From Defluviitalea saccharophila (GTDB lineage Bacteria > Bacillota > Clostridia > Lachnospirales > Defluviitaleaceae), in assembly GCF_038396635.1 (NCBI RefSeq), contig NZ_CP121687.1, forward strand, positions 310,001 through 374,000: DNA of 64,000 bases, written 5' to 3'. Positions 14,099 to 24,230 of this stretch are shown here, one piece after another. The notes below the pieces were generated by a model. That model was not told the DNA's origin. It searched no databases and saw only the letters and a list, made by a program, of their open reading frames with translations. Each line of letters opens with the position of its first letter. The first letter of the stretch is position 1. The position numbers were made by a program, and so were the translations under genes.

Positions 14099-14743
14099 AT
14101 GAAAGAACCTCTATCACCAGGTCTGAAAGTCGAGATAAAGCGGCTTAGTTTTTTAAATAATAATAAATCTCAAGGCTTTATAAGTCAGATTGAAGAATGT
14201 GTCAATGATAAGATTTTAATCATTGGAGCACCTATATCTGGCGGAAAAATTGTACCCCTTAAAATGAATACTGAATACATGCTGATAATATATGGGGCTA
14301 CTGGAATGTATAGATGCAATGTTGTCATTAAGAAATCGTTTAAAAAAGATTCAATTGAAATGTTAGAGGTTGAAAGGGTAACATCTTTAGAAAAAATTCA
14401 GAGGAGAGAGTTTTTTCGACTAGAATGTGTTATTCCTTTTCAATTTAAGGCAGGAGATACTTGGGAAAAAGGAATCATAAAAGACATTAGCGGTGGAGGT
14501 ATACGGTTTATTACAAATTCTCAATTAAAAACACAAGGAGAGATCATATTAAGAATTCCTTTGGATGAAGAAGAAATCACTTTATCAGGTAAATTGTTAA
14601 TAAAGGAAGCTTCTAACACAGAACTTTATAAATATCAGTATAGAGTGTCTTTTGAAGATATTAAAAAGAGTGACCAGGATACCATAATTCAGTATATTTT
14701 CTTGCAACAAAGAAAACAAGTTAGACAATATAAAGGATTGTGA
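14099..14743 (+). CDS. PilZ domain protein, YcgR-type flagellar brake
   Basis: The N-terminal half (about residues 1-95) matches the YcgR-N/PilZN fold type. The C-terminal PilZ domain shows RREFFR near residue 102 and DISGGGIRF near residue 128, the RxxxR and D/NxSxxG motifs that bind cyclic di-GMP. YcgR-type proteins bind the motor or stator when c-di-GMP is high and slow or stop rotation. The location between flhG and cheB, inside the operon, supports this. All c-di-GMP ligands appear present. Bacillus has its homologue (YpfA/DgrA) elsewhere. Function at the motor is inferred. Confidence 0.88.
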   Translation: MKEPLSPGLKVEIKRLSFLNNNKSQGFISQIEECVNDKILIIGAPISGGKIVPLKMNTEYMLIIYGATGMYRCNVVIKKSFKKDSIEMLEVERVTSLEKIQRREFFRLECVIPFQFKAGDTWEKGIIKDISGGGIRFITNSQLKTQGEIILRIPLDEEEITLSGKLLIKEASNTELYKYQYRVSFEDIKKSDQDTIIQYIFLQQRKQVRQYKGL

Positions 14744-14748
14744 TTGTA

Positions 14749-15816
14749 ATGATGGAGAAGAAAAAAGTATTGGTTATTGATGATTCTGCTTTTATGAGAA
14801 GAGTAATTTCTGATATAATTAATAATGACCATAGATTTATTGTTGTGGGAACTGCAAATAATGGCGAAGAAGGTCTTAAAAAGATTCAAGAGTTAAATCC
14901 AGATGTAATTACACTTGATGTAGAGATGCCCTCTATGAATGGGCTAGAGATGTTAAATGTTTTAATGAAAACAAATCCCAAACCAGTTCTTGTAATCAGT
15001 GCTTTAACAAAAGAGGGTGCGGATACAACTATTCAAGCCTTAGGACTAGGAGCAGTTGATTTTATTACTAAACCAAAAAATATTTTTAAAATGAATGAAG
15101 ATGAAATAAAAACACATATATTAGAAAAAATTTCTATCGCTTCAAAGATACACAATTTCCCTTCTAGAAGTGAAAAAAAGATAGAAAAGTACGTAACAAA
15201 AAGTAGAGCAGTATCATCTCCTAGTTCAAAGTTAAAGAAAATAGTTGCTATAGGCACTTCTACAGGAGGGCCCAGAGCTTTACAGGAAGTGTTGCCTTAT
15301 ATTCCTAAAGAATTGCCGGCAAGTTACGTAATCGTTCAGCATATGCCTCCCGGCTTTACTAAATCTTTAGCAGAACGATTAAATTCTTTAAGTGATATTA
15401 CAGTGAAGGAGGCAGAAGATAAAGATATCTTATATCCAGGAGTTGCCTATATAGCCCCGGGAGATTATCATATTTTAATCGAAAAAGCGAATTACTCATC
15501 AGATTATTGGATTAGATTATCAAGTAGTCCTTCTGTGGGAGGTCACCGACCATCGGTTAATGTTATGTTAAATTCTCTATCAGAGACTAATTTGGATAAT
15601 ATTGTTGGTGTAATTATGACTGGAATGGGTTCAGATGGATGTGAAGGTATGAAAAATCTTAAAACAAAAAATAATGCTTATATTATTGCTCAGGACGAAA
15701 AAACCTGCGTTGTTTATGGAATGCCTAAAGCTGTTGTTGAATCAGGAATTGCTAATGTAGTTGTACCTATACAACAAATTGCAAAAGAAATAGTAAAAGC
15801 GGTGGAGGTGCTTTAG
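14749..15816 (+). CDS. cheB: chemotaxis protein-glutamate methylesterase/deamidase CheB
   Basis: An N-terminal receiver domain with phosphorylatable Asp57 (DVEMPSMNG) is joined by a basic linker to a C-terminal methylesterase domain. The catalytic triad can be read as Ser171 in GTSTGGP, His198 in QHMPPG and Asp296 in GMGSDG. CheB removes methyl groups from chemoreceptors when phosphorylated by CheA. AAAGGA precedes ATG 14749 by 11 bases; the GTG at 14740 overlapping the PilZ gene is too close to it. No cheR is present in the window, so the methyltransferase must be encoded elsewhere. Confidence 0.96.
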   Translation: MMEKKKVLVIDDSAFMRRVISDIINNDHRFIVVGTANNGEEGLKKIQELNPDVITLDVEMPSMNGLEMLNVLMKTNPKPVLVISALTKEGADTTIQALGLGAVDFITKPKNIFKMNEDEIKTHILEKISIASKIHNFPSRSEKKIEKYVTKSRAVSSPSSKLKKIVAIGTSTGGPRALQEVLPYIPKELPASYVIVQHMPPGFTKSLAERLNSLSDITVKEAEDKDILYPGVAYIAPGDYHILIEKANYSSDYWIRLSSSPSVGGHRPSVNVMLNSLSETNLDNIVGVIMTGMGSDGCEGMKNLKTKNNAYIIAQDEKTCVVYGMPKAVVESGIANVVVPIQQIAKEIVKAVEVL

Positions 15817-15817
15817 T

Positions 15818-17896
15818 ATGGACATGAGCCAATATTTAGAAATATTTATCGAGGAATCAAAGGAACATCTTCAAGGGTTAAATGAAAATTTGCTCCAACT
15901 TGAAAATGAGCCTGAAAATATGGCCATCTTAAATGAAATATTCCGTGTAGCACATACTTTAAAAGGTATGTCGGGAACCATGGGATTTACAAGGATGCAA
16001 AAACTAACGCATAATATGGAAAATGTGCTTTCAGAAATTCGCAATGGACATATTAAAGCAAATTCAAATTTGCTTGATACTCTTTTCAAATGTTTAGATG
16101 CATTAGAAAACTATGTGAATGAAATCACAAATACTGGAAGCGAAGGACAAGAAGACTATAATAATATCCTTAAAGAATTAGGCGAAATACTATCGGGAAA
16201 GTCAGAAAACATAGAAGATAGCAGTGAAAAGAAAGAAAATACTGCTGGCTCTAACACAATTCCAGATGCTAATATTGCTAATTCAGATGTTTCAAATATT
16301 GTACTGAATGAATATGAAAATAATGCTGTAAAAAGTGCAGTAGCAAGAAATTATAATGTATATGAAATAACTGTTCAATTAAATAAAAGCTGTGTACTCA
16401 AATCAGCCCGTGCGTTTATTGTATTTAGAACATTAGAAAACTATGGAGAAATCATTAAAGCGATTCCTAAAGTTGAAGATATTGAAGATGAAAAATTTGA
16501 ATTTGACTTTACAGTAGTAGTGATTTCAAAAGAGTCAAAAGATGTTTTAAAGAAAGGTTTGCTAAGCATTGCTGAAGTTGAAGAAATCATTATAAAAGAC
16601 ATTGTTGTGTCACAAAGCAGCCCTTCTAGTTCAACTGAATCTTCAAGCAATGGAATGCAATTAAGTTCTTCAGCAGAAGATACGATACAAGATGCTACAT
16701 ATGAAGAAAACAGTGATGTTTCAAAAGATTCTGGATCAAAGTCAAAACCTAAAGCAGGAAAAACTGTTCGCGTAGATATAGATCGATTAGATACTTTAAT
16801 GAATCTTGTTAGTGAGCTCATCATTGTAAAAACAAGACTTGAAGGCATTGAAGGAGAAAACAATAGCCAAAATTACAATGAAGCAGTTGAGTATTTAGAA
16901 AGAATTACAACCAATATTCATGATGCTGTTATGAAAGTAAGGATGGTTCCTGTTGAAAGAGTATTTAATCGTTTCCCAAGAATGATAAGAGATATCTCTA
17001 GAAAGCTCAATAAAGATATTGAACTTACCATGTCTGGAGAAGAAACCGAGTTAGATAGAACCGTTATTGATGAAATAGGAGATCCTTTAATTCATTTACT
17101 AAGAAATGCAGCAGATCATGGATTGGAAACAACTGAGGAACGCATTCGTAAAGGGAAAGAAAAAACAGGTCATATTTATTTACGAGCTTATCAAGACGGA
17201 AATAACGTTGTCATTGAAGTAGAAGACGATGGTAATGGTATAGATACTAAAAAGGTTAGGGACAAAGCAATTGAGAAAGGTGCTATTTCTCCAGAATTAG
17301 CTGCTAATTTATCCGAGCAAGAAATTATTGAATTATTATTTAAACCAAGCTTTAGTACTTCAGAAAACATTTCTGATATTTCAGGAAGAGGCGTAGGTTT
17401 AGATGTAGTTAAAACTAAGATTGAGGCATTGGGTGGAGATATTGAAGTTAAAACAACTTTAGGAAAAGGAAGTAAGTTTATTGTTTGCCTCCCTCTTACT
17501 TTGGCAATTATTCAAGCACTTATGGTTAAAGTAGGGGAAGAAAAATATGCTATTCCTCTTAATACGATACAAAATATTGAAGATGTAAAAGTATCCGATA
17601 TACAATACGTACAAAAACAAGAAGTTATTGTTTTAAGAAATCAAGTAATTCCAATTGTTCGATTGGATAAAGTCTTAGATGTACAAAAACGCAATCAAAC
17701 AGATGTAATCACCGTTGTTATTGTTAAAAAAGGTGAGAAGCAAGCAGGTTTTGTAGTTGATGGCTTAATTGGACAACAGGAAATTGTAATCAAATCCTTA
17801 GGAAAATATTTAAGTGGTATTCGTATGATTGCCGGTGCAACTATTTTAGGGGATGGAGAAGTAGCTCTTATTTTAGATATTAATACATTAGTATAG
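15818..17896 (+). CDS. cheA: chemotaxis histidine kinase CheA
   Basis: Domains in order are an Hpt domain (residues 1-105) with phosphorylation site His46 in AHTLKGMSG; a P2 CheY/CheB-binding region in the middle flanked by Ser/Glu-rich linkers; a dimerisation domain starting VRVDIDRLDTLMNLVSELI; an HATPase domain with IHLLRNAADHGLE, VEDDGNGID and GRGVGLDVVK; and a C-terminal CheW-like domain. CheA autophosphorylates under receptor control and passes phosphate to CheY and CheB. GGAGGTG precedes the ATG, one base after the cheB stop. All catalytic motifs are intact. Confidence 0.97.
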   Translation: MDMSQYLEIFIEESKEHLQGLNENLLQLENEPENMAILNEIFRVAHTLKGMSGTMGFTRMQKLTHNMENVLSEIRNGHIKANSNLLDTLFKCLDALENYVNEITNTGSEGQEDYNNILKELGEILSGKSENIEDSSEKKENTAGSNTIPDANIANSDVSNIVLNEYENNAVKSAVARNYNVYEITVQLNKSCVLKSARAFIVFRTLENYGEIIKAIPKVEDIEDEKFEFDFTVVVISKESKDVLKKGLLSIAEVEEIIIKDIVVSQSSPSSSTESSSNGMQLSSSAEDTIQDATYEENSDVSKDSGSKSKPKAGKTVRVDIDRLDTLMNLVSELIIVKTRLEGIEGENNSQNYNEAVEYLERITTNIHDAVMKVRMVPVERVFNRFPRMIRDISRKLNKDIELTMSGEETELDRTVIDEIGDPLIHLLRNAADHGLETTEERIRKGKEKTGHIYLRAYQDGNNVVIEVEDDGNGIDTKKVRDKAIEKGAISPELAANLSEQEIIELLFKPSFSTSENISDISGRGVGLDVVKTKIEALGGDIEVKTTLGKGSKFIVCLPLTLAIIQALMVKVGEEKYAIPLNTIQNIEDVKVSDIQYVQKQEVIVLRNQVIPIVRLDKVLDVQKRNQTDVITVVIVKKGEKQAGFVVDGLIGQQEIVIKSLGKYLSGIRMIAGATILGDGEVALILDINTLV

Positions 17897-17910: not shown

Positions 17911-18357
17911 ATGGAGAATATTTCTAATGCGGAATCCAAGCAATATGTAGTATTTAAATTGGGTAATGAAGAATATGGTATAGACATACAAAAAGTTCAG
18001 ATTATTGAGAGAATACAAAACATCACAAGAGTTCCTAAGTCCCCTTATTTTATTAAAGGAGTAATTAATCTTCGAGGAGAAATTATTCCAGTAATGAGTC
18101 TAAGAAGTAAATTTGATTTAGAAGAAGACGAATATAATGACGAAACGAGAATTATTATTGTTGAAATAGAGGATAGCAAGATTGGAATGATTGTTGATCA
18201 AGTAAAAGAAGTACTTCAAATTTCAACAGAAGCTATAGAAAACGTTCAAGGATTTACATCAGATATTAATTTTAATTTTATTCAGGGCGTAGGAAAGGTA
18301 AACGACCATATTGTTACTTTATTGAATTTAAAAAGTATTATTGATTCTACAATGTAA
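17911..18357 (+). CDS. cheW: chemotaxis coupling protein CheW
   Basis: A 148-residue single CheW domain beginning QYVVFKLGNEEYGIDIQKVQ and including FIKGVINLRGEIIPVMSLR, the SH3-like fold that links receptors to CheA. GGGGGCG precedes ATG 17911. A 91-base gap with a very strong hairpin separates it from cheC, while most other genes in the operon overlap or nearly touch. Confidence 0.96.
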   Translation: MENISNAESKQYVVFKLGNEEYGIDIQKVQIIERIQNITRVPKSPYFIKGVINLRGEIIPVMSLRSKFDLEEDEYNDETRIIIVEIEDSKIGMIVDQVKEVLQISTEAIENVQGFTSDINFNFIQGVGKVNDHIVTLLNLKSIIDSTM

Positions 18358-18378
18358 TTTGTATTTATATTTCATTGA

Positions 18379-18426
18379 ATAGATTTCCAATAAGAGTATA
18401 TTTATATACTCTTATTGGAAATCTAT
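18379..18426 (+). other. 22-bp perfect hairpin between cheW and cheC
   Basis: Bases 18379-18400 and 18405-18426 are perfectly complementary over 22 bp with a 4-base TTTA loop. The stem is AT-rich but long, and is followed by cattatttgaagg rather than a T run. As RNA it would be one of the most stable local structures in the operon. It may be a terminator with partial readthrough, an mRNA 3'-end stabiliser for the cheBAW transcript or an RNase processing site. The inverted repeat is certain; the function is inferred. Confidence 0.65.
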
Positions 18427-18448
18427 CATTATTTGAAGGAGTGAAATA

Positions 18449-19072
18449 ATGCCAGGTATCGATATAGATAAGTTAAATACGTTGCATCTGGATGTTTTGA
18501 GAGAGATTGGCAATATTGGAGCAGGAAATGCCACCACTGCGTTGGCAAAAATGTTAAATAAAAAAGTAGATATGGGAGTTCCTAAAGTTAATATTTTAGA
18601 GCTTAAAAATGTCGCTGATATCTTAGGCGGTCCTGAAAACCTTGTCGTTGGTATTTTACTTGATGTATCAGGAGAAATTAATGGTATGATGATGTTTGTT
18701 CTTGAACAGCAATCTGCCCATGTATTAGTTAATATACTAATGGAACGAGAAATTCATGATATTTCCGAGTTTACAGAATTAGATATTTCGGCACTTCAGG
18801 AAATTGGCAATATTTTAACTGGGTCTTATTTATCTTCTTTAGCGGCATTAACCAAATTGACGATTATTCCGTCCATTCCTCAGATGGCCTTTGATATGGC
18901 AGGTGCTATATTGAGTGTTCCTGCAATTGAATTTGGAAAAGTAGGAGACAGAGTTCTATTTATAGAGACTGAATTTGCAGAAGGAATTGACCACGTTACA
19001 GGGTATTTTATTCTGATACCTGATATTGGCTCTTTTGAAAAAATATTGACGTCATTAGGGGTTAGTTTATGA
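18449..19072 (+). CDS. cheC: CheY-P phosphatase CheC
   Basis: Two CheC active-site helices are visible, LREIGNIGAGNATTALAKML near residue 20 and LQEIGNILTGSYLSSLAAL near residue 120, each with the E/D-x3-N dyad. CheC dephosphorylates CheY-P and binds CheD, coupling adaptation to CheY-P levels. The 207-residue length is normal. GAAGGAG precedes the ATG, and the 3' end overlaps cheD, consistent with the known CheC-CheD partnership. Confidence 0.95.
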   Translation: MPGIDIDKLNTLHLDVLREIGNIGAGNATTALAKMLNKKVDMGVPKVNILELKNVADILGGPENLVVGILLDVSGEINGMMMFVLEQQSAHVLVNILMEREIHDISEFTELDISALQEIGNILTGSYLSSLAALTKLTIIPSIPQMAFDMAGAILSVPAIEFGKVGDRVLFIETEFAEGIDHVTGYFILIPDIGSFEKILTSLGVSL

Positions 19073-19563
19073 TGGATTCTAATTCAATTATTAAAGTTAG
19101 AATGGCGGATCTAAACGTAACAAAATACCCTGGTATTCTAACTACATTAGGGCTCGGCTCTTGTGTTGGAATAGCATTATATGATCCTGTATCAAGGGTG
19201 GGAGGTTTGGCTCATATAATGCTTCCAGACAGTACACAAATAAAAAATAATTCAAATATTGCAAAGTTCGCTGATACAGCAACTGTTAAGCTGATTGAAG
19301 ATATGATTAATATAGGTGCTAAAAAAGATAGAATAGTTGCTAAACTTGCTGGAGGAGCTCAAATGTTTTCATTTAGTCAATCTAGTGACTTAATGAGAGT
19401 TGGTGCAAGAAATGTATCTGCTGCTCAGGCTATTTTGGCGAAGCTTGGAATTCCTATTATAGCTTCTGACACTGGTGAAAATTATGGAAGAACCATAGAA
19501 TTGTATACAGAGGATGGAAGACTTGTCATTAAGACAATTGGTCATGGAATAAAACAAATATGA
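19069..19563 (+). CDS. cheD: chemoreceptor glutamine deamidase CheD
   Basis: The protein contains TTLGLGSCVGIALYDP with the nucleophile Cys32 and GGLAHIMLP with His49, the catalytic pair of the CheD deamidase family. It deamidates specific Gln residues on chemoreceptors and stimulates CheC phosphatase activity. The start is either ATG 19069 or the adjacent ATG 19072; both overlap the cheC stop. The 164-residue length is typical. Confidence 0.95.
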   Translation: MMDSNSIIKVRMADLNVTKYPGILTTLGLGSCVGIALYDPVSRVGGLAHIMLPDSTQIKNNSNIAKFADTATVKLIEDMINIGAKKDRIVAKLAGGAQMFSFSQSSDLMRVGARNVSAAQAILAKLGIPIIASDTGENYGRTIELYTEDGRLVIKTIGHGIKQI

Positions 19564-19873: not shown

Positions 19874-20644
19874 ATGACTGAAAAAAATCTCCAAGAGCTA
19901 TGGGAACAATATGAGAAGACAAATCAGCCTTCTATAAAAGAAAAGCTTATTATTGAATATGCGCCTCTGGTTAAATATGTTGCCGGGAGATTAAATATTT
20001 ATTTAGGTCAAAATGTTGAGTATGAAGATCTCATTAGTTATGGTATTTTTGGATTAATTGATGCAATTGATAAATTCGATCTTTCTAAAGGAGTAAAATT
20101 CGAAACATATGCATCCCTTAGAATTAGAGGAGCTATATTAGACAGCATACGAAAACTAGATTGGGTTCCAAGATCTTTAAGACAAAAGTATAAACAAGTT
20201 GAAAAAGTCTGCATGGAATTGGAAACAGAGTTAGGTAGAAGTGCTACAGATGAGGAACTTGCAGAAAAAATTGGAGTGTCAGTAGAAGAAGTACAAGAGA
20301 CATTTAAAAAGATTAATCTCCTATCTCTTATTTCTTTAGAGGAATATGTTGAACAAAATAATGAGCCTAGAACTGATACGAATTTTCATAGGAATACTGA
20401 ACAACCTGAAGCATATCTAGAAAAACAAGAGTTAAAAAGAATTCTAAAAGAGGCGATCGAAAAACTGCCGGAAAGAGAGCAGAAAATTTTATTTTTTTAT
20501 TACTTTGAAGAATTAACTCTAAAAGAGATCAGTGCGATTATGGGCGTTTCGGAATCTAGGATATCTCAGCTTCATACTAAAGCCATTACTCGTTTAAAAG
20601 GAAAATTAGGAAGACATAAGTCAATTTTGTTTGAGTTATTTTAG
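19874..20644 (+). CDS. sigD: RNA polymerase sigma factor for flagellar genes, SigD/FliA (sigma-28)
   Basis: A 256-residue sigma-28 factor. Region 2 contains LVKYVAGRLNIYLG, DLISYGIFGLIDAIDKFD, KFETYASLRIRGAILDSIR and LDWVPRSLRQK, all diagnostic for FliA/SigD. Region 3 follows, and region 4 carries the helix-turn-helix TLKEISAIMGVSESRISQLHTKA. It directs transcription of late flagellar, chemotaxis and autolysin genes. CAGGAGG precedes the ATG. As in Bacillus it lies near the end of the operon, where distal position lowers its level. No matching sigma-28 promoter was found immediately upstream. Confidence 0.97.
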   Translation: MTEKNLQELWEQYEKTNQPSIKEKLIIEYAPLVKYVAGRLNIYLGQNVEYEDLISYGIFGLIDAIDKFDLSKGVKFETYASLRIRGAILDSIRKLDWVPRSLRQKYKQVEKVCMELETELGRSATDEELAEKIGVSVEEVQETFKKINLLSLISLEEYVEQNNEPRTDTNFHRNTEQPEAYLEKQELKRILKEAIEKLPEREQKILFFYYFEELTLKEISAIMGVSESRISQLHTKAITRLKGKLGRHKSILFELF

Positions 20645-24196: not shown

Positions 24197-24230
24197 AGGC
24201 TTCAGCCTGTTATTAGGTTGAAGCCTTTTA
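24197..24230 (+). terminator. terminator/attenuator between rpsB and tsf
   Basis: AGGCTTCAGCCT (24197-24208) pairs with AGGTTGAAGCCT (24215-24226), 12 bp with one G-U pair and a 6-base loop, followed by TTTTATATA. The T run is short, so partial termination that lowers tsf relative to rpsB is likely. Confidence 0.75.

Follow-up and report, generated by a model that had tools for sequence, protein, structure and literature searches.

In 28 of 33 published cases, clostridial stem-loops at which mRNA is processed carry no run of U (PMC4423207). Those of the cip-cel operon cause the transcript to be cut next to them, and the fragment that retains the stem-loop is protected (PMC10311766). Cleaved stem-loops of type I contain two regions of two GC pairs and those of type II contain one region of six GC pairs; at the stem-loop IR4, the combination of AU pairs at the stem base and a small stem-loop before it shifted the cut upstream, which favored the downstream gene (PMC10311766). 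RNase Y is suspected there, without proof, as the processing enzyme (PMC10311766). A different use of intra-operon stem-loops is described for R. cellulolyticum, in which the stoichiometry of ABC transporters is set by internal terminators that have long stems and a low U content (PMC9045158). There, 32.8% termination was still seen when the tail had three U, two of which adjoin each other; a three-U tail without poly(U) gave 9.4%, and a stem-loop without its U tract gave none (PMC9045158).

Here we describe a hairpin in the intergenic region that separates cheW from cheC in a fla/che operon. Like the stem-loops termed SRPS, it is a clostridial intra-operon stem-loop, and most of them share its lack of a U run; orthologous SRPS stem-loops are kept between species, as this hairpin is in seven of eight genomes; and the genes on its two sides, like those that flank them, probably have products required in unequal amounts. 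It differs in belonging to a chemotaxis operon and in being known from sequence alone, whereas the SRPS type is recognized by the mapping of processed ends and by flanking transcripts of unequal abundance. The GC-pair signatures of SRPS types I and II are absent from it (5 G-C pairs among 22, with one CC/GG step). Its AU-rich stem base resembles that of IR4, but of six sequences from its family, G006 alone is predicted to form a small stem-loop upstream. With the internal terminators of clostridial ABC importers, which lie downstream of substrate-binding-protein genes, it shares a long intra-operon stem and a low U content; theirs, however, are described as longer, GC-rich stems, in contrast to the AU-rich base found here (PMC9045158). 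An SRPS operon has also been predicted among clostridial flagellar genes, operon 1018 (flagellar biosynthesis) of C. cellulolyticum, but the passages on it name no junction, and the text of that paper holds no match to cheA, cheW, or chemotaxis (PMC8219983). In the titles and abstract openings of the literature that we searched, no cheW-cheC hairpin was named, which does not imply its absence from print.

The cheW-cheC hairpin and its operon

The window, which is the whole stretch of DNA that we analyzed, comprises 64 kb (bases 310001 to 374000) of a 3.01-Mb single-contig genome (G000), which we place in Defluviitaleaceae. The fla/che operon has the order flhA-flhF-flhG-(PilZ gene)-cheB-cheA-cheW-cheC-cheD-sigD, in which flhA, flhF, and flhG are names that we presume. 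This order, on a single strand from flhA to sigD, is kept in all seven genomes compared (7/7), and we infer that the genes are cotranscribed. A first-pass annotation of the same DNA had named cheB, cheA, cheW, cheC, and cheD, in agreement with Pfam (Table 1), and had reported a perfect 22-bp stem with a 4-base loop in a wide gap between cheW and cheC, among genes that otherwise overlap. The stem-loop was described exactly: it reads ATAGATTTCCAATAAGAGTATA, TTTA, TATACTCTTATTGGAAATCTAT, and all 22 pairs are Watson-Crick. The gap is indeed wide, at 91 nt (cheW stop, 18357; cheC ATG, 18449), and the overlap is real for cheC and cheD (4 nt) but not for cheB and cheA, which are 1 nt apart, or for cheA and cheW, which are 14 nt apart.

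Table 1. Positions, within the window, of the hairpin, its parts, and the neighboring genes
Feature	Positions	Strand	Basis
cheB	14740..15816	+	Pfam CheB_methylest
cheA	15818..17896	+	Pfam Hpt, P2, H-kinase_dim, HATPase_c, CheW
cheW (adjoins hairpin upstream)	17911..18357	+	Pfam CheW
A/U-rich spacer from cheW stop to stem, poorly conserved	18358..18378	+	Sequence, alignment; possible cleavage region by inference
Whole stem-loop, 22 bp with 4-nt loop	18379..18426	+	Sequence, folding, genome hairpin scan
Stem 5' arm	18379..18400	+	Sequence; pairing counted in family alignment
Basal stem 5' side, AGATTTCC, invariant	18381..18388	+	Identical in six distinct family sequences
TTTA loop	18401..18404	+	Sequence, folding
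Stem 3' arm	18405..18426	+	Sequence, pairing count
Basal stem 3' side, GGAAATCT, invariant	18417..18424	+	Identical in six distinct family sequences
Conserved 22-nt spacer from stem to cheC, with likely ribosome-binding site AAGGAG at 18436-18441	18427..18448	+	Sequence, alignment
cheC (adjoins hairpin downstream)	18449..19072	+	Pfam CheC
cheD	19069..19563	+	Pfam CheD
Flagellar sigma factor, sigD type	19874..20644	+	Pfam Sigma70 r2/r3/r4; sigD name from operon position

Folding of 103 nt around the hairpin gave z = -7.1 on the plus strand, with none of 200 shuffles equally stable. The minus strand of the same region folds as well (z = -9.2), so that folding alone cannot assign the strand. Within 464 kb of the genome (the window and a further 20 segments of 20 kb each), the hairpin ranked third among 39 near-perfect hairpins scoring at least 14, only two scoring higher, and several of the 39 were copies of one repeat. 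The top-scoring hairpin of this sample is a 28-bp palindrome between open reading frames called divergent (L258, 10303-10361). Immediately after the cheW-cheC stem, the tail CATTATTTG holds 5 T in nine bases, in runs of two and three. The earlier description of the hairpin as lacking a U tract is thus correct in that no T run exceeds three, but it passes over those five T and over the loose terminator scan of the window, which picks up the site. An operon-wide hairpin scan is a weak control, as its cutoff also misses the interrupted stems of three relatives (G001, G004, and G006). Around the start of cheC, a further hairpin (CATTATTT/AAATAATG) was spotted by eye but dropped because it is broken in relatives. 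Elsewhere in the window, a 13-pair hairpin followed by TTTATATACA lies between rpsB and tsf (24197-24226), a junction that bears hairpins in G003 and G006 as well; it looks like an internal terminator, unlike the cheW-cheC hairpin.

The whole hairpin, searched on both strands, finds itself alone in its genome. Its motif GATTTCC..GGAAATC gave 18 forward matches over eight genomes, namely, the junction in seven genomes and 11 sites elsewhere, compared with 15 matches for a reversed-pattern control. The self-only match and the control-level number of off-junction matches rule out a repeat family of the REP or MITE type, and a known Rfam RNA family is ruled out by the lack of any match at gathering score in the 64-kb window. 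The pattern AGATTTCCAA..TTGGAAATCT has one further site in the genome, with the same 10-bp ends and an unrelated middle. This second palindrome (L053, C1:1260947-1260990 of G000), which has a near-identical counterpart in G039, sits between two genes that resemble, by appearance only, those for sugar-binding lipoproteins. A palindromic repeat of about 46 bp with A/T-rich outer arms, CATAGGAAAT..ATTTCCTATG, is present in 35 genome copies (for example, C1:38165-38192 and 2884594-2884621 of G000; reversed-pattern control, 0), with no exact copy in the window; it forms a family of the REP or MITE kind that has no relation to the hairpin at cheW-cheC.

Conservation of the stem in Defluviitaleaceae

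Lack of conservation in close relatives had been named at the outset as grounds for refuting the first-pass reading, and the outcome went in its favor. We found the hairpin, with compensatory changes, at the same cheW-cheC junction in seven of eight family genomes (G000, G039, G001, G002, G005, G004, and G006), among which G039 is of the same species as G000 and has an identical gap. The eighth, Defluviitalea phaphyphila (G003), has a 35-nt cheW-cheC gap without the hairpin. Because G003 is nested among hairpin-bearing genomes in a CheW+CheC tree (supports 0.88 and 0.92), one loss is the simplest reading.

The eight basal pairs formed by AGATTTCC and GGAAATCT are the same in all six distinct family sequences. 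In cheW+cheC of these six, by contrast, only 10 of 87 fourfold sites are invariant, as are 53 of the 236 codons that specify identical residues. Above the stem base, five pairs have changed on both sides, compared with 2.3 ± 1.0 in shuffles (8 of 500 shuffles reach five) and 0 to 2 in partner-sliding controls; the covariation score was equaled by 4 of 500 shuffles. Further pair types were not above shuffles in the six sequences (9 versus 8.6; 275/500). All of these covariation counts come from only six sequences, which are related, and the structure was taken from one of them. The pairing is uninterrupted over 22 pairs in G000 and G039, and the G002 stem is paired throughout once G.U is counted; in G001, G005, G004, and G006 the pairing is broken after 11 pairs by mismatches or an internal loop, above which the upper stem is short. 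None of the six sequences has a T run longer than three, and their first nine tail bases include 4 or 5 T. The stem ends 21 to 24 nt before the cheC start in all six, and upstream of the stem the family sequences align poorly. Judged by this conservation, the stem is very likely functional.

Among 22 stems, G.U wobbles on the coding strand outnumbered A.C mismatches by 10 to 3 (one-sided P = 0.046, a value that ignores relatedness), and no A.C mismatch occurred in the six family stems. This G.U excess points weakly to RNA of the coding strand.

Hairpins at the junction across the order

A search of the order matched 238 of 392 genomes. We analyzed 109 loci, hand-picked among the matches listed to spread over genera and leaving aside five duplicate loci (L157 to L159, L176, and L177); in 30 of these, cheW was not located next to cheC, and their exclusion from the cheW-cheC count left 79. 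Hairpins were called strong at z ≤ -3 and at least 10 pairs. Gaps of 40 to 300 nt were folded and shorter ones counted as without a hairpin, and stems extending into coding sequence would escape this folding. Strong hairpins were present at cheW-cheC in 10 of 79 loci among the matches listed, compared with 0 of 79 at cheA-cheW and 0 of 106 at cheC-cheD; the Fisher test (P = 3.8e-6) ignores kinship among the ten strong-hairpin loci. When folded gaps alone are considered, the counts at these loci among the matches listed are 10 of 18, 0 of 6, and 0 of 12, respectively, so that the concentration of wide gaps at cheW-cheC is part of the contrast between junctions. This concentration of hairpins fits the first-pass suggestion that the junction divides cheBAW from cheCD-sigD.

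The cheW-cheC gap was below 60 nt in 62 of the 79 loci among the matches listed and at least 60 nt in 17, with a median of 20 nt that includes the hairpin-bearing loci. Most loci thus have a short gap and no hairpin, which makes the element optional. Defluviitaleaceae supply six of the ten strong loci, two of which belong to a single species; the other four come from family f6, taken as Lachnospiraceae, and represent three genera (g39, g9, and g133). The cutoff is soft, as L008 was missed at z = -2.8 while its duplicate L078 passed at -3.5, and the helix counted at L009 is an upstream A/T hairpin, although the conserved stem is also in the fold. By the same rule, an overlapping 80-locus set gave 12 of 76 at cheW-cheC (with L113 borderline), 0 of 75 at cheA-cheW, and 1 of 79 at cheC-cheD. 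The last is a 25-pair hairpin between cheC and cheD of Lachnospira pectinoschiza (L153).

Outside Defluviitaleaceae, the junction in the 80-locus set carries stems of the CCAAGGAAGAAG type (L100, L101, L108, L113, and L116), stems of the ATAGTGAG type (L134 and L149, labeled Roseburia, and L209 and L213 of the order set), and other unrelated stems (L127, L138/L142, and L146). The ATAGTGAG type is present in one copy per genome in the two f6 genomes that bear it and in none of two genomes with other stems. Of three genomes tested for the CCAAGG type, two have a single copy, and the third has a variant stem missed by the exact pattern; five Lachnospiraceae stems of this type end 22 to 23 nt before the cheC start. 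To judge from their unlike sequences, these nonfamily hairpins probably arose independently.

Candidate roles of the hairpin

The reading that we prefer, at just short of even confidence, is that the hairpin may be a cis-acting stem-loop of the fla/che mRNA that works like an SRPS stem-loop and uncouples, posttranscriptionally, the amounts of cheB-cheA-cheW from those of cheC-cheD-sigD. A stem with pairing under selection, no U run, and an AU-rich base would make a poor canonical terminator and a good protector of mRNA ends or processing signal. One long mRNA could then yield unequal amounts of upstream and downstream proteins through a hairpin that is cut or that protects. Cleavage downstream of the stem, within the 22-nt spacer, would favor CheW and the upstream genes, and cleavage before the stem would favor cheC-cheD-sigD; the AU-rich stem base suggests the latter, if the parallel with IR4 in the cip-cel operon holds. 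RNase Y (TIGR03319) scored above the cutoff in seven of the eight family genomes, the miss being G002, which is 78% complete. Against the SRPS-like reading, D. phaphyphila lives without the hairpin, and most cheW-cheC gaps in the order are short.

The strongest rival, which we nevertheless consider unlikely, is a weak internal intrinsic terminator at which some polymerases would stop past the stem, lowering cheC-cheD-sigD relative to cheB-cheA-cheW. A terminator of the canonical kind is ruled out by the AU-rich stem base and by the lack of a U run longer than three, and here the initial statement that the hairpin is not a simple terminator was sound; it does not reach the weak internal kind. 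The tail, with its short T runs, passes the loose scan, some Lachnospiraceae hairpins (L213, L134, and L149) have a displaced T run, and in work on low-U, long-stem internal terminators of R. cellulolyticum a three-U tail still terminated at 32.8% (PMC9045158). The same source reports inactivity of the stem-loop lacking its U tract and only 9.4% for the three-U tail without poly(U) (PMC9045158), and the family sequences, with 4 or 5 T in no run longer than three and a stem base that is AU-rich rather than GC-rich, likewise weigh against termination. Translation insulation comes next: the stem would part cheC from ribosomes finishing cheW, break their coupling, and keep the cheC ribosome-binding site free, with no processing involved. 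The usual gap is short enough to permit coupling (median, 20 nt over 79 loci), and the stem keeps its distance from cheC both in the six family sequences (21 to 24 nt) and in the five CCAAGG-type stems (22 to 23 nt), as an insulator might. However, a 91-nt gap should uncouple by itself, which makes selection for about 20 bp of pairing hard to explain, and the distance to the cheC start reaches 104 nt in other lineages (L127); we therefore regard insulation as distinctly unlikely.

Lower still we place a role at the DNA level, as the operator of a dimeric regulator or as a palindrome whose perfect symmetry is maintained by template switching during replication, without any function in RNA. Template switching is able to mimic compensatory changes, the symmetry in G000 is perfect, and a protein could read the invariant half-sites AGATTTCC and GGAAATCT. 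Such a reading is improbable, because the half-site spacing is variable (GATTTCC..GGAAATC spans 32 to 43 nt in the family), the off-junction matches of the motif stay below their control (11 versus 15 over eight genomes) and thus reveal no regulon, and the relatives' G.U wobbles and internal loops, together with the lack of A.C mismatches in six family stems, are unlike template correction. Least likely of all, to the point of being very improbable, is that RNase III cuts within the 22-bp duplex and thereby divides the mRNA. Sites of this enzyme consist of about two turns of uninterrupted duplex. The 22 uninterrupted pairs of G000 and G039 and the G002 stem, paired throughout including G.U, would suit it, but such a duplex is not conserved, with 11 pairs before the mismatches in G001, G005, G004, and G006, and cutting within the stem gives no reason for keeping the basal sequence. 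The RNase III-type site suggested by the first-pass annotation is therefore weakly supported.

Extending the SRPS-like reading, cheW-cheC may be a recurrent site of RNA-level stoichiometry control in the order, gained several times with unrelated sequences. In Defluviitaleaceae, IR4-like upstream cleavage would then give a separate, hairpin-capped cheC-cheD-sigD mRNA, setting the supply of the sigma factor and of CheC/CheD apart from that of CheA/CheW; we think this broader scenario unlikely.

What makes the junction of interest is that it bears unlike stems in several lineages. The CheA/CheW array proteins, the CheC/CheD adaptation proteins, and the flagellar sigma factor share one row of genes, yet the quantities required of each are probably unequal. 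A conserved hairpin without a U run at cheW-cheC, with unrelated ones at the same place elsewhere, would offer a simple posttranscriptional answer, and it would readily allow SRPS to be tested beyond the operons of cellulosomes and transporters.
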